This document shows positions 6,901-26,607 of a DNA stretch of 27,835 bases, in pieces. Source of the stretch: a virus; the IMG/VR virus record IMGVR_UViG_3300008954_000219, positions 1 through 27,835 of that record. One strand, 5' to 3'. Under the pieces are notes generated by a model that made no database searches, was not told the DNA's origin, and saw only the letters and a program-made list of their open reading frames with translations. Position 1 is the first letter of the stretch, and each line of letters begins with the position of its first letter. The position numbers and the translations under genes are program-made.

Positions 6901-7283
6901 TCTTTGATGTGGATATTGAGACTTATGCGAATGTCAGTGCATTTCCGGGGAGCTATATTTATGTGGATCCTAGGGGCTTTTCGCCCAACACCGTTATTGG
7001 GAGTGATACTATAGATTTAACGCAAATAGGTATTGGAGGGTATCACATGATTATTCGTTCCGAACATAGCTTTGGGCCGGGCCGTGCTAATTCCCGCATT
7101 CACGCGAAATGGGTAGCTAGCACAAATGCCAAAGCGACCAACACCCCCTCGGCCGGCAGCATGACGACGGCTAGTCCCACGCGCGCCATTTATTGTTGGT
7201 CGGAGGCAGAGAATTCTAATCGAGAACAAGAAGCTAAAGACGGATCTGGATTGATGGAGTTTGTTTTTGGGGGTGAAAGTTAA
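3996..7283 (+). CDS. Large virion structural protein, probable baseplate hub or wedge
   Basis: 1095 residues starting at GTG, 3 nt after the previous stop. The GGGGG run 8-9 nt upstream is the only ribosome-binding-like sequence, and no in-frame ATG occurs before residue 56, so GTG is preferred. Residues 1-230 are Ala/Thr/Glu-rich and probably coiled coil. From about residue 295 the sequence becomes beta-rich, with FINHLTQHPGYTHL, LQPMIRLYKI, GIGVGVQDFTFSYEADNPFA and a KAVVGWAYRSDWP region. The C-terminus has PGSYIYVDPRGFSPN and GIGGYHMIIRSEHSFGPG, the style of late-control/hub beta domains of contractile tails. It overlaps the next gene by 1 nt (TAATG). A structural role is fairly secure; the specific hub assignment is inference. 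Confidence 0.65.
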   Translation: MPGEEYEYNEPAEKPTPETYTVKGGAQVETNASKAARSIWTADQVSEEAAAARQTAMATSTTEERTAARENVLAAIESYNTAAKNYSDAVDDGTAKKCGLNLTSLSTKSWNETGDNAANISGFSTATSKVSENNTKAATANGCSGDSEVLALIEALESISETSEKLGKDLDAINNATDAYRAALEAEIAARTGPYAPTQDPNIIEDLKNLLAALDKESEEGGVSLSDVTTTTPPFFNEQCFLLAEIQHLVKYKTAELDGKLNGKRLPYTATPAVNGVTTEPWNNKICNASLLARGDPFAFINHLTQHPGYTHLMTMQTDQIANLQPMIRLYKIITERDSDGNPISPPTQFPIPFDSTFTENEIINFGEDKSKRGIGVGVQDFTFSYEADNPFAIKKSIKAKLTLFANSFDELLVPRGTTTEFKYVDLALKTGVDRSLSLASFNPKETDVKQENLAKLDFRLKAVVGWAYRSDWPNNSTLTTDVKDAIYNSCVTLNLTPTVHTFDIDDQGRVKFVINYLAYVEDFYDQPNFNIFNSVSAEKNRIERKIKAQTWVTKCASKEYSELQKAQKTEIEEDRVTSFQSLIGGLFENHKIRFIQLESADVLKFRQEGPFFDASQIIGKVSTLSEGNEIALSGQIQQAIGSGATEEDRVKLLSIAGTGAENKTQTLSFFYVSDLMDLILEGIDEKFNGDNSLQNYLKEMRQNPGQYLKTPAPDEKPMDDETVLEQIDQQVAVVRAMGEQYKNFRLLLGPLEIVSPDENKESLFPSLGDLPISVKYFTEWLSRKMAKRDEVYYPLPKFLNDFFNELIREFLNSNQCFSNEAKQKTRVNQAVVTSYRDTTNHADEITELIWGDRNKTSKTNISRLWLKDHKNTRPLLKNIGGDRDLPIVEKGVDKEINYLAYFAGRTQPAEQMTGDEATDHTNGIFHYSIGRDRGITKTIKLKKTDSTGLKELRFEQDGYDGLKQLREVFDVDIETYANVSAFPGSYIYVDPRGFSPNTVIGSDTIDLTQIGIGGYHMIIRSEHSFGPGRANSRIHAKWVASTNAKATNTPSAGSMTTASPTRAIYCWSEAENSNREQEAKDGSGLMEFVFGGES

Positions 7284-8485
7284 TGTCTGCTTATTATAAA
7301 GAAAAAAACAACGAATCGACCCGAGATTTGTTTAACAAAAAGATGGTTTATAAAAGCAACATGTTAGATTATGCTAACAACTATCCCAACATCACTAATT
7401 TTAATTATGGAGAGAAGTTGTTGTATGGGCGGGTTAATAGATTATTTGTACCCATTCAAATTCGGGATCCTGACATCTCCCTAAAGGGATTTAAAAGCGT
7501 CTCCCAACCAGCCCAGGGTATCAAATTTGTAGTGGATGCCTTTGAAGACATGGCCCGACAATTTCGTAAATGTGCCATGGCTGGCAAAATTAATACTTCC
7601 GATCCGTACCTGAGCAATCTTTTGGTATATAAAGCTTACCAAAGTCCTGAAATCTTATATCAAGGTTATAAAAATATTTATTTTGGTACGATAGCTGCCA
7701 ACTTTAAGGGAGATAAACTAAACGTTAAAAATTTTGATGAGTTCATAGAAAAACTGAACCCGATGCTTGAAAAACCAAGCCACAGTATTCCTTTCACCAA
7801 GACTGCTTTTGTTAAAAGCCGACGCTGTCCTATTAATGTGTCAGGATTGGTGGTTGAGATAGCAGATTTGGATCCTGTTAATGACGATGAAAAGATAAAC
7901 GCCTTTGTTAACAGCCCTAATTGGGAATTTTATGTTAACACTTGCAAGTCATACGGATTCATGATTGATCAAGAAATGCCATGGCGCCTGGTGGCCGACA
8001 TTGGTTCATCCGCAATGATAGAATATGCCGCGCGCTATGCGCTGGGGGGCACGGATCTCATTATTCATTCGATTTACGGGCCCTCTCATCTTTCTTATTT
8101 TAATAATTTAATGGCCTATCTGTTGAGTTTGTATAATATTTGTAAAGAAGAGACCATCATTGAAATTGAAGAATGCGGAGATCGGAGTATCACCTCTTTG
8201 GTAACCCCCAGTTCTTATAGTCTGGCACAAATTGCCCAACAATACAGAGAGATTTATTTTTTTAAACTCTATATGAAGATAAGGTTTTGGGAAGACGAAT
8301 CCAAAGAAGACGATGCTCCACGCGCACAACTCGAACGGGACTGTGTTCAGATTTATCTTACCCGAGGATTAGACAAAGCTTTGTATGTTTTTGAAAGAAT
8401 TATTAATAAACCATTTGACTATCGCGGCTCTTTGAGTTATATTTATAAACAGGTAGACGCAATGCGCGAGTCCGAGATCGAATAA
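7283..8485 (+). CDS. Conserved virion-associated protein of unknown function
   Basis: 400 residues, start overlapping the previous stop by one base (TAATG), so it is translationally coupled to the hub-like gene and is probably made with the virion proteins. It is rich in Tyr, Phe, Asn and Lys. Visible stretches are NPMLEKPSHSIPFTK, VPIQIRDPDISLKGF and a mid-protein SPNWEFYVNTCKSYGFMIDQ. It has no signal peptide and no clear transmembrane helix. I recognise no catalytic motif. Its position as the last gene before the replication block suggests a baseplate or tail accessory protein; this is by context only. Confidence 0.6.
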   Translation: MSAYYKEKNNESTRDLFNKKMVYKSNMLDYANNYPNITNFNYGEKLLYGRVNRLFVPIQIRDPDISLKGFKSVSQPAQGIKFVVDAFEDMARQFRKCAMAGKINTSDPYLSNLLVYKAYQSPEILYQGYKNIYFGTIAANFKGDKLNVKNFDEFIEKLNPMLEKPSHSIPFTKTAFVKSRRCPINVSGLVVEIADLDPVNDDEKINAFVNSPNWEFYVNTCKSYGFMIDQEMPWRLVADIGSSAMIEYAARYALGGTDLIIHSIYGPSHLSYFNNLMAYLLSLYNICKEETIIEIEECGDRSITSLVTPSSYSLAQIAQQYREIYFFKLYMKIRFWEDESKEDDAPRAQLERDCVQIYLTRGLDKALYVFERIINKPFDYRGSLSYIYKQVDAMRESEIE

Positions 8486-8494
8486 GAAGGGTAA

Positions 8495-9670
8495 ATGTTT
8501 TTTCAGACATTAGATGATAAAACTGAATGTGTTGGTGTATATGTAGACGGGAAACTTCACTTTGATGAAATCCCCGACAACCTCACCAAGACATGGAAGT
8601 ACACTGGTTCTGTATCCGACAAGGATGTGGAGTTTGCGTGGTTGTATGCTAACGGCCTCGACCTACAGGAAGCCGCACCCGAAGAATTAAAGACAGCACT
8701 CCAGGACAGCCAGCGCAGATTTAGAGCATACTTGAAAGCTTTCAAGATTGGCAAAATCAACCTGCGAGAGCACTGCTTTTTTGACCTTGTGCCCCAGGAT
8801 TTTCTGATGGAGTTCTGCGACATCAAAAATCAAGTTACAGAGCACGTTTTCGATAACTTCGAGAAGCCAGAGAACTACAAGTTTCTGGATAAGGTATATC
8901 GACTGCTGCACAAGATCAAATATCAAGATCTCAACCTCAACAACGAGGGGTGCCGAGAGTTGTACTACACATCCATGGGGCGCAAGAAGTCCAATCAGCT
9001 TATTGACCACTACGGACACATAGACTACAATCTCTTTGGTACGGTCACCGGTCGCCTCACAACCCTTCCAAATTCTTTCCCCATACTGACAGTCCAGAAG
9101 AATTTTCGTCAACTTCTAAAGCCGCATAACGATTGGTTTATCTCTTTGGATTACAACGGTGCAGAGGCTAGAACTTTGCTCTATTTGAACGGAGAATCAC
9201 AACCTCAAGAGGACATCCACACCTGGAATATGGAGAACATTTTTATCAGCGAGCGCGACCGAGACACAGCCAAGACGCTGTTCTTTGCGTGGCTGTATAA
9301 CCCCGAATCCAGCGCATTCAATGCCGAATGTTATAATCGCGAAAAAGTACTTGACGAATGGTATCGAGGTGGTTATATTTATACACCATATGATCGTAAA
9401 ATCTTAGTGGACGAGAGGAAAGCCTTAAACTATCTCATTCAAAGCTCGACAGCAGATCGCGTTCTTGCGAGGGCTGTTGAGATTGACGAGTTTCTTGAGG
9501 GCAAGAAGTCATTCATTTCTCATATTGTTCACGATGAAATTGTGATCGACATGAGCGATGAAGATCGCGAGAGTTTAGTGGATATTAAACAGATCTTTGA
9601 AAAAGACAATTTTATGGCCAACCTGAATGCAGGGAAGGACTACTTTAACTTTAAAGAGTTGAAAATATGA
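8495..9670 (+). CDS. Compact family A DNA polymerase lacking an exonuclease domain
   Basis: 391 residues, ATG 9 nt after the previous stop with AAGGG upstream. All family A polymerase core motifs are present: TVTGRL (T183-R187), motif A DYNGAEAR with catalytic D219, motif B R256-x3-K260-x3-F264-x3-Y268 (O-helix positions), LNYLIQSSTAD with Q316, and motif C HDE at H346-D347-E348. Spacing matches Pol I, but the protein is about half to two-thirds of the usual length. Only about 180 residues precede the palm, with no DEDD 3'-5' exonuclease motifs. It should copy DNA without proofreading, perhaps for gap filling or Okazaki maturation beside the DnaE encoded at 23188. It overlaps the next gene by ATGA. 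Confidence 0.9.
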   Translation: MFFQTLDDKTECVGVYVDGKLHFDEIPDNLTKTWKYTGSVSDKDVEFAWLYANGLDLQEAAPEELKTALQDSQRRFRAYLKAFKIGKINLREHCFFDLVPQDFLMEFCDIKNQVTEHVFDNFEKPENYKFLDKVYRLLHKIKYQDLNLNNEGCRELYYTSMGRKKSNQLIDHYGHIDYNLFGTVTGRLTTLPNSFPILTVQKNFRQLLKPHNDWFISLDYNGAEARTLLYLNGESQPQEDIHTWNMENIFISERDRDTAKTLFFAWLYNPESSAFNAECYNREKVLDEWYRGGYIYTPYDRKILVDERKALNYLIQSSTADRVLARAVEIDEFLEGKKSFISHIVHDEIVIDMSDEDRESLVDIKQIFEKDNFMANLNAGKDYFNFKELKI

Positions 9671-10527
9671 TCTCTATTATTGGGCTGGGAAATTCTGGTA
9701 GCAGGATTGCGGAAAAGTTTTCCTCACTCCCACAGTATAGTGTTTTTTGTTTGAATAATAGCGTTAAACGAACGTCTAAGTATAAGTTCAAATTAAAGAA
9801 GTACCAGACGCCCGAGGAATACGAAGAAAACATTCCAGATGTCCGAAAGTTCTTTAAAGACGCAGCCGATCACATTCAGTTTTTTGTGGTGGGGGCATCG
9901 TACAGTTCTAACTATGCGTTGGGGATTCTGGAGCAGCTTAAGGATAAGAAGATTGATTTGTTTTACATCAAGCCAGATGTGGATCTGCTCTCGGGAATCC
10001 CGAAGCTCATGGAGAATGCCACCTTCGGTGTGCTCCAGGAATATGCGAGGTCGGGACTGTTTAATTCTGTGACCTTGATTTCAAACCTTAACCTGGAAAC
10101 CATTTTGCAGAACGTACCTATCAAGGAATACTACAGTTCACTCAATGGAATGATTCAGTCGGCTGTACACTACATGAATTACTTTGCGCACAATGAGCCT
10201 GAGATTGGCGTTTTGGCCAAGCCGGCAGAGATTTGTCGTATTACAACCTACGGTGTTTTGAACATGAAGAATCTTGAAGAAAAATGGTTTTTTGACCTTG
10301 ACATCGACAGAGAGGTATGTTATTATTTATGTATGAATAAGGAAAAGTTAGAGAAAGATGGGAGCTTGCATAGGAAATTGGTTCATATGCTGAAGGAAAA
10401 GCCCCGCAATGCCTTTCGTAAGGTTTCGTATGCAATTTACGAAACTGAGACTGGCGCCGATTTTGGGTTCTGCGTTGCCCGCACTAACGTAGTACAAAAA
10501 ACTCTTGACATGGTAGAGCAAGAGTAA
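9667..10527 (+). CDS. Divergent tubulin/FtsZ-like protein
   Basis: 286 residues, start overlapping the polymerase stop (ATGA). Residues 2-14 are a beta strand plus glycine loop (IGLGNSGSRI) like the T1 loop of FtsZ. Residues 72-84 (FFVVGASYSSNYA) fall where tubulins have GGGTGSG, but the glycines are mostly lost. The order then follows the family: a strand with KPDVDLLSGIPKLMENA (FtsZ VTKPF...R...A), a strand VTLISNLNLETIL (FtsZ IVIPN..L), a long helix SSLNGMIQSAVHYMNY, then PEIGVLAKPAEICRI in the place of the T7 loop PGLINVDFADV. The catalytic NxDxxD is not conserved. Phage tubulins such as PhuZ build spindles; here nucleotide hydrolysis may be lost. A plain Rossmann protein is the main alternative. 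Confidence 0.6.
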   Translation: MISIIGLGNSGSRIAEKFSSLPQYSVFCLNNSVKRTSKYKFKLKKYQTPEEYEENIPDVRKFFKDAADHIQFFVVGASYSSNYALGILEQLKDKKIDLFYIKPDVDLLSGIPKLMENATFGVLQEYARSGLFNSVTLISNLNLETILQNVPIKEYYSSLNGMIQSAVHYMNYFAHNEPEIGVLAKPAEICRITTYGVLNMKNLEEKWFFDLDIDREVCYYLCMNKEKLEKDGSLHRKLVHMLKEKPRNAFRKVSYAIYETETGADFGFCVARTNVVQKTLDMVEQE

Positions 10528-10533
10528 TATAAT
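10505..10533 (+). promoter_or_regulatory. Consensus sigma70-type promoter for the SSB gene
   Basis: TTGACA (10505-10510), 17 nt, TATAAT (10528-10533): a perfect match in both boxes. It lies over the last codons and stop of the tubulin-like gene. The predicted transcription start is near 10540, 44 nt before the SSB ATG. A perfect inverted repeat ACTCTTG (10501-10507) / CAAGAGT (10519-10525) straddles the -35 box. Confidence 0.85.
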
Positions 10534-10536
10534 AGA

Positions 10537-10583
10537 GTAACAAGGAACGCTTGTTGCGAACTCATCAAAAAGGAGAAAAAAGT
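10537..10583 (+). promoter_or_regulatory. Leader of the SSB mRNA with 5' hairpin
   Basis: GTAACAAG (10537-10544) can pair with CTTGTTGC (10550-10557) around a 5-nt loop, 8 bp including one T-G pair, right at the predicted 5' end of the transcript. It is followed by an unstructured A-rich stretch with the ribosome binding site AAGGAG. In T4 the gp32 mRNA leader has a 5' structure and an unstructured site used for autogenous repression; the same logic here is inference. Confidence 0.4.
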
Positions 10584-11354
10584 ATGAGTATTGATATGGA
10601 ACTAATGAGAAAGAAGCTTGCCTCATTGCGAGGTGAGAACACGGATAATGGAAACTCTCCATGGTTTAAACCGGACGAGGGAGATACGGACATTCGCATC
10701 GTGCCTACAAACGATGGGGATCCGTTGAAGGAAATGTTCTTCCACTATAATGTAGGAAATCACAGAGGCGGAGTGCTCTGTCCAAAGCGCAACTTTGGCG
10801 ATCACTGTTCAATTTGTGAATTTGCCTCTCAGCTTTGGCGAGAGGGAGTAGACAACAACGACGAGGAAAGCAAGAAGCTGGCCAAGTCTCTCTTTGTGAG
10901 GACTCGGTACTTCTCTCCAGTGGTCATTCGTGGCCGCGAGGATGAGGGAGTTAAGGTATACGGCTACGGTAAGACCGCATACGAACTGCTTCTCGGCTAT
11001 ATCCTTGATCCCGAATACGGCGATATTACAGATGCCAATGAAGGCACTGATATTACGCTAACTTACACCAAGCCGAATAAGCCTGGTGCCTATCCCCAAA
11101 CGAGTCTGAAGATGCGTCGTAATACATCGACCCTCCTTGATGACACAGAAGCGATCCCTGCCCTTTTGGATCGTTTGCCAGACTTTGATGCTCTCTTTGA
11201 GCGTTTGAGTCCTGCGCAAGTAGACGCAATTCTCGATGAACAGCTTTCTAGCGATAATTCCGCTGAAGGACGTTCTTCTGAGACAGCCAAGTACGGTCCC
11301 GCCAATGGGAAGAGCGAGGTTGACCGAGCATTCAATGAACTTATGAGTGGCTGA
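10584..11354 (+). CDS. Single-stranded DNA-binding protein, gp32-like
   Basis: 256 residues. The ATG at 10584 is chosen because AAGGAG lies 8 nt upstream; an in-frame TTG at 10551 would extend it but has no such site. The zinc motif H60-x5-C66-x8-C75-x2-C78 (CPKRNFGDHCSICEF) closely matches the His/Cys3 zinc subdomain of T4 gp32. The N-terminus (MELMRKKLASLRGENT) resembles the basic LAST-type region for cooperativity, followed by WFKPDEGDTDIRIVP, an OB-fold start. The C-terminal 40 residues are polar and acidic with EVDRAFNELMSG, fitting the partner-binding tail. It would coat ssDNA for the phage polymerases, RecA and helicase. It has its own strong promoter and is followed by a terminator, so it forms a separate high-output unit. 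Confidence 0.92.
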   Translation: MSIDMELMRKKLASLRGENTDNGNSPWFKPDEGDTDIRIVPTNDGDPLKEMFFHYNVGNHRGGVLCPKRNFGDHCSICEFASQLWREGVDNNDEESKKLAKSLFVRTRYFSPVVIRGREDEGVKVYGYGKTAYELLLGYILDPEYGDITDANEGTDITLTYTKPNKPGAYPQTSLKMRRNTSTLLDDTEAIPALLDRLPDFDALFERLSPAQVDAILDEQLSSDNSAEGRSSETAKYGPANGKSEVDRAFNELMSG

Positions 11355-11374
11355 GACGACTCACGGGTGCCGCT

Positions 11375-11411
11375 GGCAGACCGGCTTGCAAATAGTCTGC
11401 CTACTTTTTTT
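11375..11411 (+). terminator. Intrinsic terminator after the SSB gene
   Basis: Stem GGCAGAC (11375-11381) / GTCTGCC (11395-11401), 13-nt loop, then TAC and seven T residues (11405-11411). It starts 20 nt after the SSB stop, so SSB can be made as a monocistronic message. Confidence 0.85.
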
Positions 11412-11421
11412 AAAAAAGTTC

Positions 11422-11450
11422 TTGACAACGTAAAGAAAGTTTGATATATT
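11422..11450 (+). promoter_or_regulatory. Sigma70-type promoter for the ParB-like/Dam unit
   Basis: TTGACA (11422-11427), 17 nt, TATATT (11445-11450), 11 nt downstream of the terminator T run. Predicted start near 11457. A short inverted repeat TTCTT (11419-11423) / AAGAA (11433-11437) overlaps the -35 box. Confidence 0.8.
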
Positions 11451-11550
11451 AAGAATATCCAAAGTGACGATGGTCACCGAGGTTACACAAAAGTGCAATT
11501 GCTACGGCTACCGCACTTATAATACAGGCCACTGGCCGAGGAAATTAATA
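11451..11550 (+). promoter_or_regulatory. Structured 5' leader of the ParB-like gene
   Basis: The roughly 94-nt untranslated leader holds two hairpins: GTGAC-GATG-GTCAC (11464-11477) and AAGTGC (11491-11496) / GCACTT (11513-11518) with a 16-nt loop. The ribosome binding site GAGGA lies at about 11538-11542. I see no coding sequence here apart from an in-frame upstream extension of the next gene that begins with a non-ATG codon and lacks a ribosome binding site. Confidence 0.45.
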
Positions 11551-12687
11551 ATGAGCAATAATAAGAAAGGCGCCGCTGACGCCAACATCAGCATCGTGAA
11601 CGTTAACGATCTTCAAGGAGATATCTATACAGACTCCGAAGGAGAAGTTGTTGACATTAACAATGGCACCCCGAAAATCCGCACAGGATTCAACAACCGA
11701 GGAACAATTAATCTTGATGAGTTGGAAAAACTCCCCAAGATTGATTTTAAGGACGCAAAGTTCATTGAGTTTGGTTGGTTGGATCTTACGACAGTTGATC
11801 TAAATGACGCTAACTGGAAGAACATCGGTATTCGCGCGGTGGATGACGCAGACAATCGCATTGATAGTTTTCGTGTGTCATTCAGCCGTCGTGGTTATGA
11901 CATGTCGGAGTTTCCGCCGTGTATTGACACCGATGATAATCCATTAGAAGGTCGAGGTCGCATTAAGGCTGCGATAAAGAATGGAGAACGCTGGATGCCA
12001 ATTGCGCGATATAGTCGGTCCGACACATCTGACCGCAATACTGTGACTAATGGTTTGCGTGCTAATCAGAAGAAGCCAGTCTATATGTCAGTTTTCGATG
12101 ACTATGTGAACGCTGGTGTTGGCCTGATTGCCAAGGGAGAACTTGAAGCTGATATACAAGCAATTGATAATTGGCTATATAGGGAAGTCAAGATTGACAA
12201 CGTGATCGATAACAGTCGAGGCGGCACTATCACCAAGATTAAGAATAAGATCTTGGAACGCTCCAAGATTGATTCCAGTCTTATCTGGAGTCTTAGCAAA
12301 ACTGATGCTGAAAAGTGGATTACCACGAATCTTGGTTTGGCAAAAGCTGATTTCGTTCTGATCAACATGGCTGATAATGAGACGTATGCTGAGCGCGCAT
12401 GGCGACATGTCCGCGATGCTTTGAAGAACGGTCGGGAGCCCGTGAATCTCATCTTCTACACTACTGACTATAGCCCAACCGCAGCGCGCGCAGGGCTTAA
12501 GAAATCGATGGAATACGTTGAAAACTTGTACCGCGACTCTTGGGAAGTGGTCATGAGCCAACTTCCAGCAGTGGTTAAGTTGGAAATTCCGGAGACGCGT
12601 CCATTTATTTTCATGGGCGCCCTTCCGCAAATCGTCCAAAATCACAAAATCAATGGACACCACTTGGTGCCGGTTGATAAGTACTAA
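11551..12687 (+). CDS. ParB/sulfiredoxin-like domain protein
   Basis: 378 residues from the ATG at 11551, which has GAGGA about 8 nt upstream. An upstream in-frame extension to 11464 lies in the structured leader and is not used in this call. Residues 70-155 carry the ParB-like pattern: WLDLTTVDLNDANWK, FRVSFSRRGYDMSEFPPCID, then DNPLEGRGRIKAAIKNGERW and MPIARY, corresponding to the dG..l.GRhRi.AA..nG...iPv core of the ParB/Srx fold. The C-terminal 200 residues are helical, with VKIDNVIDNSRGG and a Trp/Arg-rich region, and match nothing I recognise. Phage ParB-like proteins often sit beside DNA methylases and may bind or nick DNA or hydrolyse CTP. It is coupled to dam by TAATG. The fold assignment is fairly good; the function is unknown. 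Confidence 0.65.
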   Translation: MSNNKKGAADANISIVNVNDLQGDIYTDSEGEVVDINNGTPKIRTGFNNRGTINLDELEKLPKIDFKDAKFIEFGWLDLTTVDLNDANWKNIGIRAVDDADNRIDSFRVSFSRRGYDMSEFPPCIDTDDNPLEGRGRIKAAIKNGERWMPIARYSRSDTSDRNTVTNGLRANQKKPVYMSVFDDYVNAGVGLIAKGELEADIQAIDNWLYREVKIDNVIDNSRGGTITKIKNKILERSKIDSSLIWSLSKTDAEKWITTNLGLAKADFVLINMADNETYAERAWRHVRDALKNGREPVNLIFYTTDYSPTAARAGLKKSMEYVENLYRDSWEVVMSQLPAVVKLEIPETRPFIFMGALPQIVQNHKINGHHLVPVDKY

Positions 12688-13556
12688 TGAAATCACCACT
12701 GCGTTACCCTGGCGGTAAATCTCGCGCGGTTAAGACGTTGATGGAATTTATTCCCGATGATTGTGGGGAGCTTTGCTCCCCCTTTCTCGGGGGTGGTTCG
12801 TTTGAACTTGCTTTGGCCGAGAAGGGAATAACCGTACATGCTTATGACGGATTCAAGCCTTTGATCTGGTTTTGGACCGCTCTGTTAAAAGATCCTAATC
12901 GTCTGGCAACCTTGGCGGAGATGTACCGTCGCCGCAAAACATACAAATATACGAAACCCGGAACCAACAAGAAAACCGGTAACCCGTATGAGGAAATCAA
13001 AATCTCAGCCCGAGGGCTTCCTAAAAAGGATTTCATAAGATTTAGAGAGGAGATAAGATTTGCTCTGCGGGCAAACCACCCTTTCACATTTGAGGCCGCA
13101 GCGAAGGTTTATGCTATTAATCGTAGCAGTTTTTCAGGGGCGACCTTTGGTGGGGGTTTTTCAGAGAGGGCTTCATATGCTAGGTTTACCGATCAGCAAA
13201 TAGAATATATACGAAACTTTCAAGTTCAAAATCTTATCGTTAGGCATGCCGATTTTAAATATGCAATGAAGAAGCATGACTGTCTTTTTTACTTGGATCC
13301 ACCTTATTTTTTAGAGGGTACCAGGAACAGTCTCTATGGGGATGAGGGGGATATGCATAGATGCTTTCCGCATCTGGCTTTGTTCTCTATTTTGCGTGAG
13401 AGAAAGAACTGGATCTTATCTTATAATAACTGTGAAGAGATCAGATCTTTATATCGAGACTATAAGATTTATGATGCTGAATGGACTTATGGAATGAACA
13501 AATCAAAAGAATCCTCAGAAATCATTATTACGAACTTGACAAACAGCCCTGTTTGA
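12687..13556 (+). CDS. dam: Dam-type (D12 class) DNA adenine N6-methyltransferase
   Basis: 289 residues, start overlapping the previous stop (TAATG). The N-terminus has RYPGGKSR (R6-K11), the D12-family AdoMet/target loop, then FLGGGSFELAL (motif I) and VHAYDGFKPLI. Motif IV is D204-P-P-Y207, the catalytic DPPY of N6-adenine methylases. The length is close to T4 Dam (259) and E. coli Dam (278). It transfers methyl from AdoMet to adenine, probably in a short site such as GATC, which would protect phage DNA from host or phage nucleases or mark it for packaging. The specificity is not readable from sequence. Its last codons hold the promoter for the next unit. Confidence 0.9.
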   Translation: MKSPLRYPGGKSRAVKTLMEFIPDDCGELCSPFLGGGSFELALAEKGITVHAYDGFKPLIWFWTALLKDPNRLATLAEMYRRRKTYKYTKPGTNKKTGNPYEEIKISARGLPKKDFIRFREEIRFALRANHPFTFEAAAKVYAINRSSFSGATFGGGFSERASYARFTDQQIEYIRNFQVQNLIVRHADFKYAMKKHDCLFYLDPPYFLEGTRNSLYGDEGDMHRCFPHLALFSILRERKNWILSYNNCEEIRSLYRDYKIYDAEWTYGMNKSKESSEIIITNLTNSPV

Positions 13557-13564
13557 GGTAACAT
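13536..13564 (+). promoter_or_regulatory. Sigma70-type promoter for the recA unit, with palindrome in the spacer
   Basis: TTGACA (13536-13541), 17 nt, TAACAT (13559-13564), inside the end of dam. The palindrome CAAACAGCCCTGTTTG (13540-13555) fills most of the spacer and has the size and position of a repressor operator. The predicted start is near 13571. Confidence 0.75.
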
Positions 13565-13570
13565 AGTAGA

Positions 13571-13813
13571 ATGAATAAGTGGAACAAGATCTTAGGACAT
13601 CTCGATTGTGGTGGATACTACACCGAGAATCCTTGCCGATCTAAAACATGCAATCGTAAGCACAATTATTGTGCAAGACATAAGAAACTTTTACAGCCAA
13701 AAGGAGAAGTTAATGGCAAGAAAAGCACAACCATCCGCAAAAGCAGGACGCGTAGCAATCCAAGACCTAATGAAGCTCGTCAACAAGAAGGCGGGACGCA
13801 ACGTTGCGCATGA
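13571..13813 (+). CDS. Possible Cys/His-rich small protein overlapping the recA start
   Basis: 80 codons from the ATG at 13571, which coincides with the predicted transcription start, so it would be leaderless. Residues 12-37 carry C13, C22, C27, C34 and H37, a plausible zinc site (DCGGYYTENPCRSKTCNRK). After about residue 48 it runs in another frame over the first 101 nt of recA and becomes merely basic. There is no ribosome binding site. It may be a real leader peptide, or chance coding in a recA leader; the cysteine spacing is the only positive argument. Confidence 0.25.
   Translation: MNKWNKILGHLDCGGYYTENPCRSKTCNRKHNYCARHKKLLQPKGEVNGKKSTTIRKSRTRSNPRPNEARQQEGGTQRCA
13660..13674. repeat. 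Perfect palindrome in the recA leader
   Basis: GCACAATTATTGTGC is symmetric around one central base (7-bp arms), about 40 nt before the recA start codon. As DNA it looks like a dimeric operator; as RNA it makes a short hairpin upstream of the ribosome binding site. Confidence 0.45.
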
Positions 13814-23187: not shown

Positions 23188-26100
23188 TTGAAAGACATGT
23201 CTAATATTAAATTCGTGGGCCTGCATGCGCATAGCGTAGCAGGCTCTATCTTTGATGCCATTGGGTATCCACAAGCGCATATGGATTTTGCGTATGAAAA
23301 CGGCAGCGATGCGCTAGCATTAACCGACCACGGAAACATGAACGGGTTGGCATACCAAGTGCTACATGCCAGAAAGATGCAATCGCAAGGCAAGAGCTTT
23401 AAGCCCATCTTTGGATGCGAAGCTTATTTTCTGCCATCCCTGTCAGACTGGCGCGAAGAGTATACGAAGGCGATGGAAGACAAGAAGAAGGCGCGCTCTA
23501 TTAAGAAGGAGGGACAGTCAGGCGCAACCGTTGAGGATGAGAACGACAGCAAGAAGGTGCAAGGGCTCCTTCGGCGCCGTCGTCATCTCGTGCTGCTTGC
23601 GCAAAGCCAAGAAGGTCTGAGAAACTTATTCAAGTTGATCTCTGAGTCTTACCAGCCAGAGAATTATTACCGATATCCGCGAGTAGATTACGCTCTGCTT
23701 GAGAAGTATGGCGAAGGTATCATTGCTACCTCCGCATGCTTGGGTGGCGTATATGCTGGAAATTATTGGGAGAATCGAGAGGAGGGTGACGAAGCTGTGC
23801 TTGAGGCAATGCGCGAGACCACACGCCGAATGGTAGACATCTTCGGTGACCGTTGGTACGCAGAGCTTCAATGGAATAACATTCCAGAGCAACATGCCCT
23901 GAACCAACACATCATTACAGTGGCCAAAGAGTTTGGCGTTGGACTGATTTCTACAGCCGACAGCCATTACCCCAGCCCAGACGCTTGGAAGGACAGAGAG
24001 CTTTACAAGCGTTTGGGTTGGCTTGGCAAAGGCACACCAGATTGGGCAGACGGAAACGAACTTCCCGATGGTGTAGACGAGATTGGGTACGAACTGTATC
24101 CCAAGAATGGTAACCAGATGTGGGAGTCTTACAAGGAGTATTCAAAAGACTATGATTACGATGATGATCTTGTGTTGGGTTCTATCGAAGAAACCTACAC
24201 GATTGCGCACGAAAGGATTGAGTCATTCTTTCCCGACAACACGGTTCGACTCCCGTCGTTCGTTGTACCTGCCGGGTTCACGGATACTGAAGCTCTGATT
24301 AACATGTGTCTCGAAGGCTTGCGAGAGAAGGGCTTGCACGAGGATACCGAGTATCATTCGCGTCTTGAGCACGAGCTAGACATTATTGATGATCGAGGAT
24401 TCTCCAAGTACTTCCTGACGATGAAGGCAATCGCGGATGTGGCCAACAGTATGATGCTGGCTGGACCTGGACGTGGTTCTGCTGCAGGCTCACTCGTAGC
24501 CTACGCTCTGGGAATTACCCAGATTGATCCTATCAAAAACGGACTGCTGTTCTCTCGCTTCTTGCGGTCAGACGCAACAGACTATCCCGATATCGATTAC
24601 GATGTGTCCGATAGCATGCTTCTGAAGGAGAAGCTGGTGGAGATGTGGGGTGAAGACACTGTCGCACCAATCTCAAACTGGAATACACTCCAGCTTCGCT
24701 CGCTCATCAAAGACATTTCAAAACTGTATGGTATTCCCTTCACCGAAGCGAACACTGTCACGAGTGTCATGATGCGCGAGGCAACACCAGCGGCCAAGAA
24801 GAAGCACGGCATCAAGGCTGGCGTCTACGCACCGACGTGGGAAGAGGTGATGGAATTCTCACCTTCCCTCCAGGTATATCTTGCCAAGCATCCAGCCGTC
24901 AAGGCTCACGTTGAGGGGCTCGTTGGACAGGTACGTTCATGCTCTCGCCATGCTGGCGGTGTAGTGATTGCCGAGAACTTAGATAGAAGCATGCCTTTGA
25001 TTAACTCAGGAGGTGTGCGACAGACGCCATGGTCCGAGGGTCAGAACGTTCGACACCTGGAGCCCATGGGTTTCATTAAGTTCGATCTGTTGGGGCTCTC
25101 GACCCTGAAGATGATGGAGGGTTGTATCGAACACATCCTGCGCCGTCATCATGGCATGGAGAATCCTACGTTTGATGACGTGAAGAAGTATTACGATGAG
25201 AACCTCCACCCGGATGTGGTAGACACCCAGGATCAAAAGGTATACGAGAATGTGTTCCACTCAGCGAAGTGGGCTGGCATCTTTCAGTTCACCGAGACTG
25301 GAGCGCAGAACTTTTGTGCGAGAGTCAAGCCAAGAAGTATTCTCGACATTTCAATCATTGCTTCCATCTATCGTCCTGGTCCTTTGTCGGCTGGGGTACA
25401 CGATGAGTATATGGAGGCCAAGGAACACCCGCAATACGTCAAGTATTTGTCGGAGGAGGCACGAGAGATCACCGAGGAAACCTTTGGCTTTCTAATCTTC
25501 CAGGAGCAAATTGCACTACTGGCGCATAAGCTGGGAGGGCTGACGCTCGATGAGGGTAACATGCTGCGCAAGGTTCTCACTAAGAAGGGTACCGGAAAGG
25601 GCGGCATCAAAACAAAGCTTCGCGTTAAGTTCATCGATGGTTGTGCTGAGAATGGCATCGGCAAAGATGAAGCAGCAGCTTTGTGGGATAAGTTCGAATA
25701 CTTCTCAGGCTATGGTTTTAACAAGTCGCATGCAGTTTCATACAGCACGATTTCTTATCAGTGCGCATGGCTGTGGACTTACTATCCGGCCGAGTGGATG
25801 GCAGCGTTCTTGGACAAGGAGCCAGAGACTCGAAAGGAGAAGGCTATTAACATCGCAAAGCGGTACGGATTCAACATCGCACCACTGGACATCAATAAGT
25901 CAGGAGTAGTGTGGGAGATTAGCGAAGATGCCAAGACGATGGTGCAACCGCTCACATCTATCAAAGGTTTGGGAATGTCAGCCATTGAACAAATCTTAGG
26001 CAACCGACCGTTCACCAACGCAGAAGATCTCCTCTTCCGAGAAGACATTGTCTACAGCAAACTTAACAAGAAGTCGCTGGATGCATTGTGTCGCGGAGGC

Positions 26101-26607
26101 GCCCTGGATAATATAGTGGATGATAGATTCTCTGGACGTAAACACTTCTGGTCAGCATGCATTGTTGATCGACCGAAGTCTCTTAAGAGATTGACAGAGA
26201 ACATCGAAACGTTCAGACCAGAAGGAGACTTCTCAGAAGAAGAAGTTATCCAGTTTAAAACTGACCTTACGGGAGTCTTTCCCATCAACTTGGTCATCAC
26301 TCCCGACACCATTGAGGAGCTACTCGAAAAGGGTGTGCCTCCAATCTCAGAATTCGATCCCGATCTTTTTTTGTGCTGGTTTATCCCGCGCAAGATCGTG
26401 GAAAAGAAGACGAAGAACGGCAAATTGTATTGGATTGTAGAAACGATTGACAGCAACAATCAGCTAACAAAGATTAGGTGTTGGGGCATTAAACCCGAGA
26501 AGGATCGTATTTACTTAAACCGACCTTATATGGCTCGATTAAAGTATGACGAGCAGTGGGGATTCTCCACATATGCGGTAGGTAAAACGTTTAGATTACT
26601 AGGATAA
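23188..26607 (+). CDS. dnaE: DNA polymerase III alpha subunit (family C, DnaE type)
   Basis: 1139 residues, close to E. coli DnaE (1160). The TTG at 23188 is chosen because AAGGGAG lies 7 nt upstream; the ATG at 23197 is 16 nt from it. The PHP domain has H13-A-H15 and LTDHG (D47, H48). The palm has GPGRGSAAGS (about 426-435), PDIDYD with catalytic D468 and D470, RHAGGVVIA, and KFDLLGL with D633. The fingers run through GFGFNKSHAVSYS-like text (YGFNKSHAVSYS). The C-terminus has an OB fold (KKTKNGKLYWIVETID). No PolC exonuclease insertion is present. A complete replicative polymerase in a phage is unusual; it may need a host or phage clamp and exonuclease. An error-prone DnaE2 is less likely from context. 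Confidence 0.93.
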   Translation: MKDMSNIKFVGLHAHSVAGSIFDAIGYPQAHMDFAYENGSDALALTDHGNMNGLAYQVLHARKMQSQGKSFKPIFGCEAYFLPSLSDWREEYTKAMEDKKKARSIKKEGQSGATVEDENDSKKVQGLLRRRRHLVLLAQSQEGLRNLFKLISESYQPENYYRYPRVDYALLEKYGEGIIATSACLGGVYAGNYWENREEGDEAVLEAMRETTRRMVDIFGDRWYAELQWNNIPEQHALNQHIITVAKEFGVGLISTADSHYPSPDAWKDRELYKRLGWLGKGTPDWADGNELPDGVDEIGYELYPKNGNQMWESYKEYSKDYDYDDDLVLGSIEETYTIAHERIESFFPDNTVRLPSFVVPAGFTDTEALINMCLEGLREKGLHEDTEYHSRLEHELDIIDDRGFSKYFLTMKAIADVANSMMLAGPGRGSAAGSLVAYALGITQIDPIKNGLLFSRFLRSDATDYPDIDYDVSDSMLLKEKLVEMWGEDTVAPISNWNTLQLRSLIKDISKLYGIPFTEANTVTSVMMREATPAAKKKHGIKAGVYAPTWEEVMEFSPSLQVYLAKHPAVKAHVEGLVGQVRSCSRHAGGVVIAENLDRSMPLINSGGVRQTPWSEGQNVRHLEPMGFIKFDLLGLSTLKMMEGCIEHILRRHHGMENPTFDDVKKYYDENLHPDVVDTQDQKVYENVFHSAKWAGIFQFTETGAQNFCARVKPRSILDISIIASIYRPGPLSAGVHDEYMEAKEHPQYVKYLSEEAREITEETFGFLIFQEQIALLAHKLGGLTLDEGNMLRKVLTKKGTGKGGIKTKLRVKFIDGCAENGIGKDEAAALWDKFEYFSGYGFNKSHAVSYSTISYQCAWLWTYYPAEWMAAFLDKEPETRKEKAINIAKRYGFNIAPLDINKSGVVWEISEDAKTMVQPLTSIKGLGMSAIEQILGNRPFTNAEDLLFREDIVYSKLNKKSLDALCRGGALDNIVDDRFSGRKHFWSACIVDRPKSLKRLTENIETFRPEGDFSEEEVIQFKTDLTGVFPINLVITPDTIEELLEKGVPPISEFDPDLFLCWFIPRKIVEKKTKNGKLYWIVETIDSNNQLTKIRCWGIKPEKDRIYLNRPYMARLKYDEQWGFSTYAVGKTFRLLG

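Follow-up and report, generated by a model that had tools for sequence, protein, structure and literature searches.

FtsZl, the 286-aa gene product described here, is encoded in a 27.8-kb IMG/VR virus record (the window, i.e., the whole stretch of DNA analysed) between genes for a family-A DNA polymerase (polA) and a gp32-like single-stranded DNA-binding protein (SSB), as had been proposed in a first-pass annotation of this DNA (Table 1). Downstream of the SSB gene are genes for Dam, RecA/UvsX, a FEN-type exonuclease, a DnaB-like helicase and ribonucleotide reductase. Between SSB and RecA, a 377-aa protein (11554-12687) and a Dam-like methylase (12687-13556) are encoded in a minority of relatives (7 and 36 loci, respectively) and constitute a variable island. 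Just upstream of polA and outside its promoter unit, a fast-evolving 400-aa protein (7283-8485; mean distance 0.63) is encoded in most relatives; its only match is a weak one to a PHROG labelled "polymerase" (0.029).

Table 1. Positions in the window of FtsZl, its motifs, its neighbours and the associated promoters
Feature	Position	Strand	Details
sigma70-type promoter of polA-FtsZl unit	8415..8443	+	TTGACT-17-TATATT
polA, minimal exonuclease-less family-A DNA polymerase	8495..9670	+	391 aa; Pfam DNA_pol_A 2.5e-14
ATGA overlap of polA stop and FtsZl start	9667..9670	+	4 nt; translational coupling
FtsZl	9667..10527	+	286 aa, ATG start; motif-degraded FtsZ/tubulin-superfamily protein; AlphaFold2 model, Foldseek, HHalign to L414
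T1-like glycine loop GLGNSGS	9682..9702	+	residues 6-12; aligned to GIGQGGC of L414 (HHalign)
Degenerate T4 VGASYSSNY	9889..9915	+	residues 75-83; replaces GGGTGSG
T5-like segment KPDVDLLSG	9970..9996	+	residues 102-110
T6-like ISN	10078..10086	+	N140 at guanine-reading Asn position
N160 in H7-like helix	10144..10146	+	second guanine-reading position
T7-like segment without catalytic aspartates	10192..10239	+	residues 176-191, NEPEIGVLAKPAEICR
Reduced C-terminal beta domain	10240..10491	+	residues 192-275; most conserved region; DSSP of model
sigma70-type promoter of separate SSB unit	10505..10533	+	perfect TTGACA-17-TATAAT; overlaps last codons of FtsZl
gp32-like SSB	10584..11354	+	Pfam gp32 7.9e-14, PHROG 1192
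Seven sigma70-type sites	10298, 10505, 11422, 15163, 16350, 19327, 21832	+	at most 1 mismatch

The FtsZl ORF is a genuine conserved gene. Searches of viral contigs identified relatives on >590 viral stretches, which rules out a chance ORF, and the family set used below comprised 151 distinct full-length sequences (pairwise identity: mean 63%, minimum 51%). No match above threshold was found in Pfam, PHROGs, NCBIfam or the PDB sequences, tblastn returned 0 matches among 50,697 named phages, and two peptide-pattern scans did not find FtsZl in bacterial and archaeal species genomes. The carriers are a widespread uncultured marine phage group, in which FtsZl was present in every genome checked. 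No description of a phage FtsZ of this kind was found in the open-access literature.

Predicted fold and relationship to phage FtsZ proteins

The first-pass annotation had recognized a tubulin/FtsZ-like protein in this ORF, and the predicted structure agrees with it. The AlphaFold2 model built from a 36-member alignment (A1) had a pLDDT of 88.3 and a pTM of 0.88, and the five models agreed with each other (86-88). Its elements are arranged as S1-H1-S2-S3-H3-S4-H4-S5-H5-S6-H6, followed by a 24-residue H7 (152-175) and a beta-rich C-terminal domain, which is the order of FtsZ (i.e., a Rossmann-like GTP-binding domain, the H7 connector helix and a C-terminal beta domain). In the C-terminal domain of the model H9 was not seen and H8 was not helical, and the ORF ended about 13 residues past the last beta strand. 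When the model was compared with the PDB by Foldseek, each of the best 50 matches was an FtsZ or a TubZ (full length; best E 3.4e-12), with TMq values mostly of 0.64-0.72 and an identity of ~12%. Its best match among viral models was A0A6J5RW92 (E 7.9e-14, TMq 0.76), annotated as "FtsZ Cell division GTPase" of an uncultured Caudovirales phage, and other viral matches included phage tubulins. Since the model was confident, the best 50 PDB matches contained FtsZ and TubZ only and phage tubulins were among the viral ones, the annotation withstood its own test, which had looked for a confident model of some other fold with no tubulin match. An ordinary Rossmann dehydrogenase was also considered and rejected, as the Pfam matches of this kind (F420_oxidored, GARS_N and similar) were weak, all sub-threshold and at odds with the match of the whole protein to the FtsZ fold.

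Similarity was also detected at the sequence level. Scanning viral contigs for the GGGTG(S/T)GA signature identified three types of motif-intact phage proteins, L414/L377 (339 aa), L391/L429 (426 aa) and the TubZ-like L422, all of which were Pfam-Tubulin positive (1.1e-17 for L414). In HHalign, the 151-member FtsZl profile scored 32.1 against L414 over 174 collinear columns (3-176 on 9-205) and L414 outscored all 450 unrelated viral ORFs used as controls, the best of which reached 27.9 over 23 columns. Against L391 the score was 27.2 over 151 collinear columns, exceeded only by short chance matches. E. coli FtsZ and PhuZ were at background in this ranking, and direct HHalign comparisons of FtsZl with E. 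coli FtsZ, a small FtsZ set and phiKZ PhuZ showed no similarity. FtsZl and L414 also have the spacing N-x7-H-x2-N of H7 in common; its residues vary little or not at all among the 151 sequences, and chance is a poor explanation for it. Given the fold prediction and the profile homology, FtsZl almost certainly belongs to the FtsZ/tubulin superfamily.

The 426-aa protein, found at L500:7695-8975 as well as in L391 and L429, has an N-terminal extension of ~100 aa, and a few genes separate it from the gene for a tail sheath protein (Pfam Phage_sheath_1). The TubZ-like protein (L422:7713-8744; Pfam Tubulin and TubZ_C_3) comes from a viral contig of 55 kb. A0A6J5RW92, the BFVD entry, may likewise be motif-intact.

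Another database match pointed elsewhere. The PADLOC CARF6 profile matched 14 of the 36 alignment members weakly (best E 1.9e-5; residues 38-106 of the window protein), and the pocket edge of FtsZl has conserved polar residues that are not those of FtsZ (E50, E53, S80 and D104). Both would fit a pocket re-purposed for another nucleotide or dNTP, by which FtsZl would regulate the neighbouring polymerase, or a CARF-like Rossmann sensor. The CARF match, however, is confined to 69 residues, whereas the FtsZ match extends over the whole protein, and a canonical FtsZ also matches CARF weakly (0.022), so the CARF signal is probably cross-talk between Rossmann folds. With the fold search favouring FtsZ, identification of FtsZl as a CARF sensor is disfavoured, and as no catalytic motif was recognized in FtsZl, a nucleotide sensor or enzyme of any of these types is improbable.

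Retained and degraded motifs of FtsZl

Motif positions were assigned from HHalign/MAFFT alignments and secondary-structure order, without superposition. As the first-pass annotation had proposed, the elements follow the order of FtsZ/tubulin; in the profile alignment, GLGNSGS falls on T1, GASYSSN on GGGTGSG, LISN on the end of the T6 (MDN/IPN) strand and the next helix on H7. In the T1-like loop, G8 was found in 151/151 and G6 in 148/151 sequences, and in the T5-like segment P103 and D104 were invariant (151/151) and G110 nearly so (150/151). The two guanine-reading positions were also invariant: N140 (151/151) is aligned to the Asn of MDN (T6) in L414, and N160 (151/151) to its N189. In addition, H168 and N171 are aligned to H197 and N200 in H7 of L414.

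The phosphate-binding and catalytic loops are different. In the HHalign alignment with L414, the GGGTGSG signature of T4 is replaced by GASYSSN, with a 3-residue deletion immediately upstream, and the consensus of the 151 sequences at this position is GSSYSSN. The T3 GAG(K) loop is absent. At T7, VLAKPAE is aligned on SLDKADL of L414 (MAFFT), neither NxDxxD nor LDxAD is present, and position 184, where the first T7 Asp would be, is S, A, T or C in 151/151 sequences with no conserved Asp, in agreement with the loss of NxDxxD noted earlier. Thus, the earlier description of the GTPase motifs as degraded holds for T4 and T7; the guanine-reading asparagines of T6 and H7 are retained. Given the losses at T4, T3 and T7, GTP hydrolysis by FtsZl is very unlikely, and judged by these motifs FtsZl would not be a canonical FtsZ/tubulin GTPase.

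The loops at the pocket edge were more conserved than those at the opposite edge (Mann-Whitney p = 0.0065), although the numbers of near-invariant positions, 10/52 and 3/42, respectively, did not differ significantly (p = 0.13). The lowest mean entropy was found in the C-terminal domain, where 23/84 positions were near-invariant; this concentration of the strongest constraint on the C-terminal face is as expected for a protein-binding surface.

The invariance of both guanine-reading asparagines and the higher conservation of the pocket-edge loops would suit a static filament: FtsZl would bind GTP through these asparagines and assemble, without hydrolysis, into stable filaments by which the replicating phage DNA is organised or positioned. 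There is a precedent in catalytically dead PhuZ D190A, which still requires GTP and makes stable filaments (PMC4244570), and early expression together with polA (see below) would be in keeping with such a role. Nevertheless, FtsZl has lost or shortened its phosphate loops, T3 and T4, as well as T7, which belongs to the longitudinal interface; H9 is missing from the model, and FtsZl is without the long C-terminal tail of the PhuZ/TubZ type. A segregation cassette of the TubZRC type was rejected, as no iteron array was found in 8400-13800 and no TubR-like neighbour was recognized, which also counts against DNA-positioning filaments. Static filaments of this type are therefore rather unlikely.

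These features set FtsZl apart from the known members of the superfamily. FtsZl resembles the motif-intact phage FtsZs L414/L377 and L391 in its collinearity from T1 to H7 and in the matching N of T6 and N, H and N of H7. Unlike FtsZl, these 339-426-aa proteins keep GGGTGSG, a GAGK-type T3 and an LDxAD T7 and are Pfam-Tubulin positive. PhuZ and TubZ, the phage and plasmid tubulins (PHROG 4733), have the same fold and, like FtsZl, are viral and linked to DNA handling. They are, however, GTP-driven polymers of other phage groups that have the motifs and a C-terminal tail, and FtsZl shares no detectable sequence similarity with them and has no match to the PHROG 4733 or TubZ_C profiles. Bacterial FtsZs, which are the best PDB fold matches, differ in having GGGTGSG, NxDxxD and a C-terminal FtsA/ZipA peptide. 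Two divergent prokaryotic families, FtsZl1 and FtsZl2, were described previously (Makarova and Koonin, 2010; PMC2875224). They retain the GGGTG(S/T)G loop and occur in cellular, membrane-linked contexts, and FtsZl1 is without recognizable T6-H7 and C-terminal domains (PMC2875224). FtsZl, in contrast, is a viral protein linked to replication, in which T4 is lost but the asparagines of T6 and H7 are retained. It is thus neither a PhuZ/TubZ nor a member of FtsZl1/FtsZl2, but represents a new family, with degraded motifs, within the FtsZ/tubulin superfamily. The superfamily is usually searched by GGGTGSG, and other members without this motif may have gone unnoticed likewise.

Coupling to polA and possible role in replication

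The gene order polA-FtsZl-SSB was found in 199/199 loci in which both neighbours were present, with 15 further loci cut at contig ends, although this set was selected by FtsZl and some of its loci are repeats of the same contig. Because of that selection, the analysis was repeated with loci chosen by their SSB (the 80 nearest SSBs, identity at least 81%), and FtsZl was found in 73/73 of those with enough upstream sequence. In all loci polA adjoins FtsZl directly. The two genes overlapped by 4 nt in 134/135 distinct junctions (ATGA 122, GTGA 12 and TTGA 1). A sigma70-like site (at most 2 mismatches) within 120 nt upstream of polA was found in 99/137 relatives, compared to 1/137 shuffles, and such sites were at background in the region before FtsZl. 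polA and FtsZl therefore form a two-gene unit in which FtsZl is the second cistron and transcription starts from a host-type and presumably early promoter. The SSB gene has a promoter of its own (at most 2 mismatches) in 121/130 relatives, compared to 4/130 shuffles. Across the window, seven sites matching TTGACA-17-TATAAT with at most 1 mismatch were found (three perfect; 0.22 expected), and those before SSB and the helicase are kept across relatives; this suggests early transcription by the host RNAP.

This universality bears on whether FtsZl might copy one face of the host FtsZ and, by capping or poisoning Z-ring protofilaments, block division of infected cells; an inhibitor of host FtsZ was among the guesses of the first-pass annotation. 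The FtsZ fold, the loss of T7 on the catalytic side and the early promoter would all suit such an antagonist, and phage-encoded division blockers exist, e.g., lambda Kil (PMC9372555). Genes for host takeover, however, tend to be small and patchily distributed, whereas FtsZl occurs throughout its group and is locked to polA. Moreover, FtsZl is without the FtsZ-type C-terminal peptide for FtsA/ZipA, is ~12% identical to FtsZ and has no detected profile similarity to E. coli FtsZ. The guess is thus disfavoured by the universal, polymerase-coupled conservation, and we regard division inhibition as unlikely.

The polymerase with which FtsZl is coupled is small and its motifs are intact, i.e., TGRL (motif 1), DYNGAEAR (motif A), an R-x3-K-x3-F-x3-Y-like motif B and HDE (motif C). 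Its AlphaFold2 model (pLDDT 92.6) matched KlenTaq in Foldseek (E 2.7e-11), than which it is ~150 residues shorter, a length consistent with absence of the exonuclease domain. A second polymerase encoded in the window (23188-26607), 1139 aa long and of the DnaE type, has matches to the DNA polymerase III alpha of named phages, which makes it probable that the phage has another replicase besides PolA.

We propose that FtsZl is a non-hydrolysing FtsZ/tubulin-fold accessory or scaffold subunit of this minimal family-A polymerase, a reading that we hold tentatively, at a little short of even confidence, because of the presumed stoichiometric co-translation with polA, the universality in the group, the loss of the GTPase cycle and the conserved C-terminal face. 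The first-pass annotation had made three functional guesses, namely a non-hydrolysing scaffold, an inhibitor of host FtsZ and a new nucleotide-binding family, and the first of these is also the one that fits best. FtsZl would no longer run a GTPase cycle and would be a fixed, early-made partner of PolA, the two being made in matched amounts and binding to each other, probably via the highly conserved C-terminal face of FtsZl. By analogy with thioredoxin and T7 polymerase or PolG2 and mitochondrial polymerase gamma, it may keep the polymerase at replication sites or increase its processivity. GTP or GDP, if the pocket binds any, would be a static structural ligand or sensor rather than an energy source. 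T7 gene 5-thioredoxin and Pol gamma A-PolG2 (aaRS-like), in each of which a family-A polymerase has acquired a dedicated accessory subunit of unrelated fold, serve here as a working analogy for PolA-FtsZl; we know of no FtsZ/tubulin-fold polymerase accessory subunit.

FtsZl divergence follows that of polA more closely than that of the other tested genes (Pearson 0.58-0.71, three sets), which supports the accessory-subunit reading. Several observations argue against it, however: polA divergence correlates about equally with SSB, and both the gene coupling and the correlated divergence are confounded by physical linkage. FtsZl was not found in the pol-SSB interval of the SPO1, Lysinibacillus, immuto and Mel-JY01 phages or of 80 Mel-JY01-like contigs. 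As Mel-JY01 and the 80 contigs like it represent related phages with a similar short polA and an SSB ~33% identical to that of the window, short polA enzymes are not generally dependent on FtsZl. The blank Pfam, PHROGs, NCBIfam and PDB sequence searches and the weak CARF6 match also count against this reading.

In FtsZl, a viral family has kept the fold and the base-reading residues but not the phosphate and catalytic loops, and all members examined are coupled to the gene of a DNA polymerase. This coupling points to the re-use of a cytoskeletal fold in phage DNA replication, as one of its fixed parts. It is possible, if somewhat doubtful, that in a globally common marine phage lineage a GTPase-dead tubulin/FtsZ fold has become both a dedicated DNA polymerase subunit, for processivity or location, and an obligatory replication gene. 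If so, a cytoskeletal NTPase would be convertible into a static replication part, whereas the known viral tubulins PhuZ and TubZ are GTP-powered polymers. As FtsZl and the 391-aa polymerase are two small proteins, the idea is directly testable.

Plausibly, FtsZl originated from a phage FtsZ-like GTPase that was tied to replication and lost its GTPase cycle afterwards. Like FtsZl, L414 and L495 are encoded in replication/recombination operons, and the presence of L495, a canonical phage FtsZ and the nearest motif-intact relative, in a recombination/SSB operon supports the link to replication. In L495:5645-9020, this motif-intact FtsZ-like gene comes last in an operon that also contains an SSB-like and a RuvC-like gene, and it overlaps its upstream gene by 4 nt. 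The operon, a second case of a GTPase tubulin encoded in a replication setting, is preceded by ORFs that by eye are YqaJ-like and Erf/Rad52-like.
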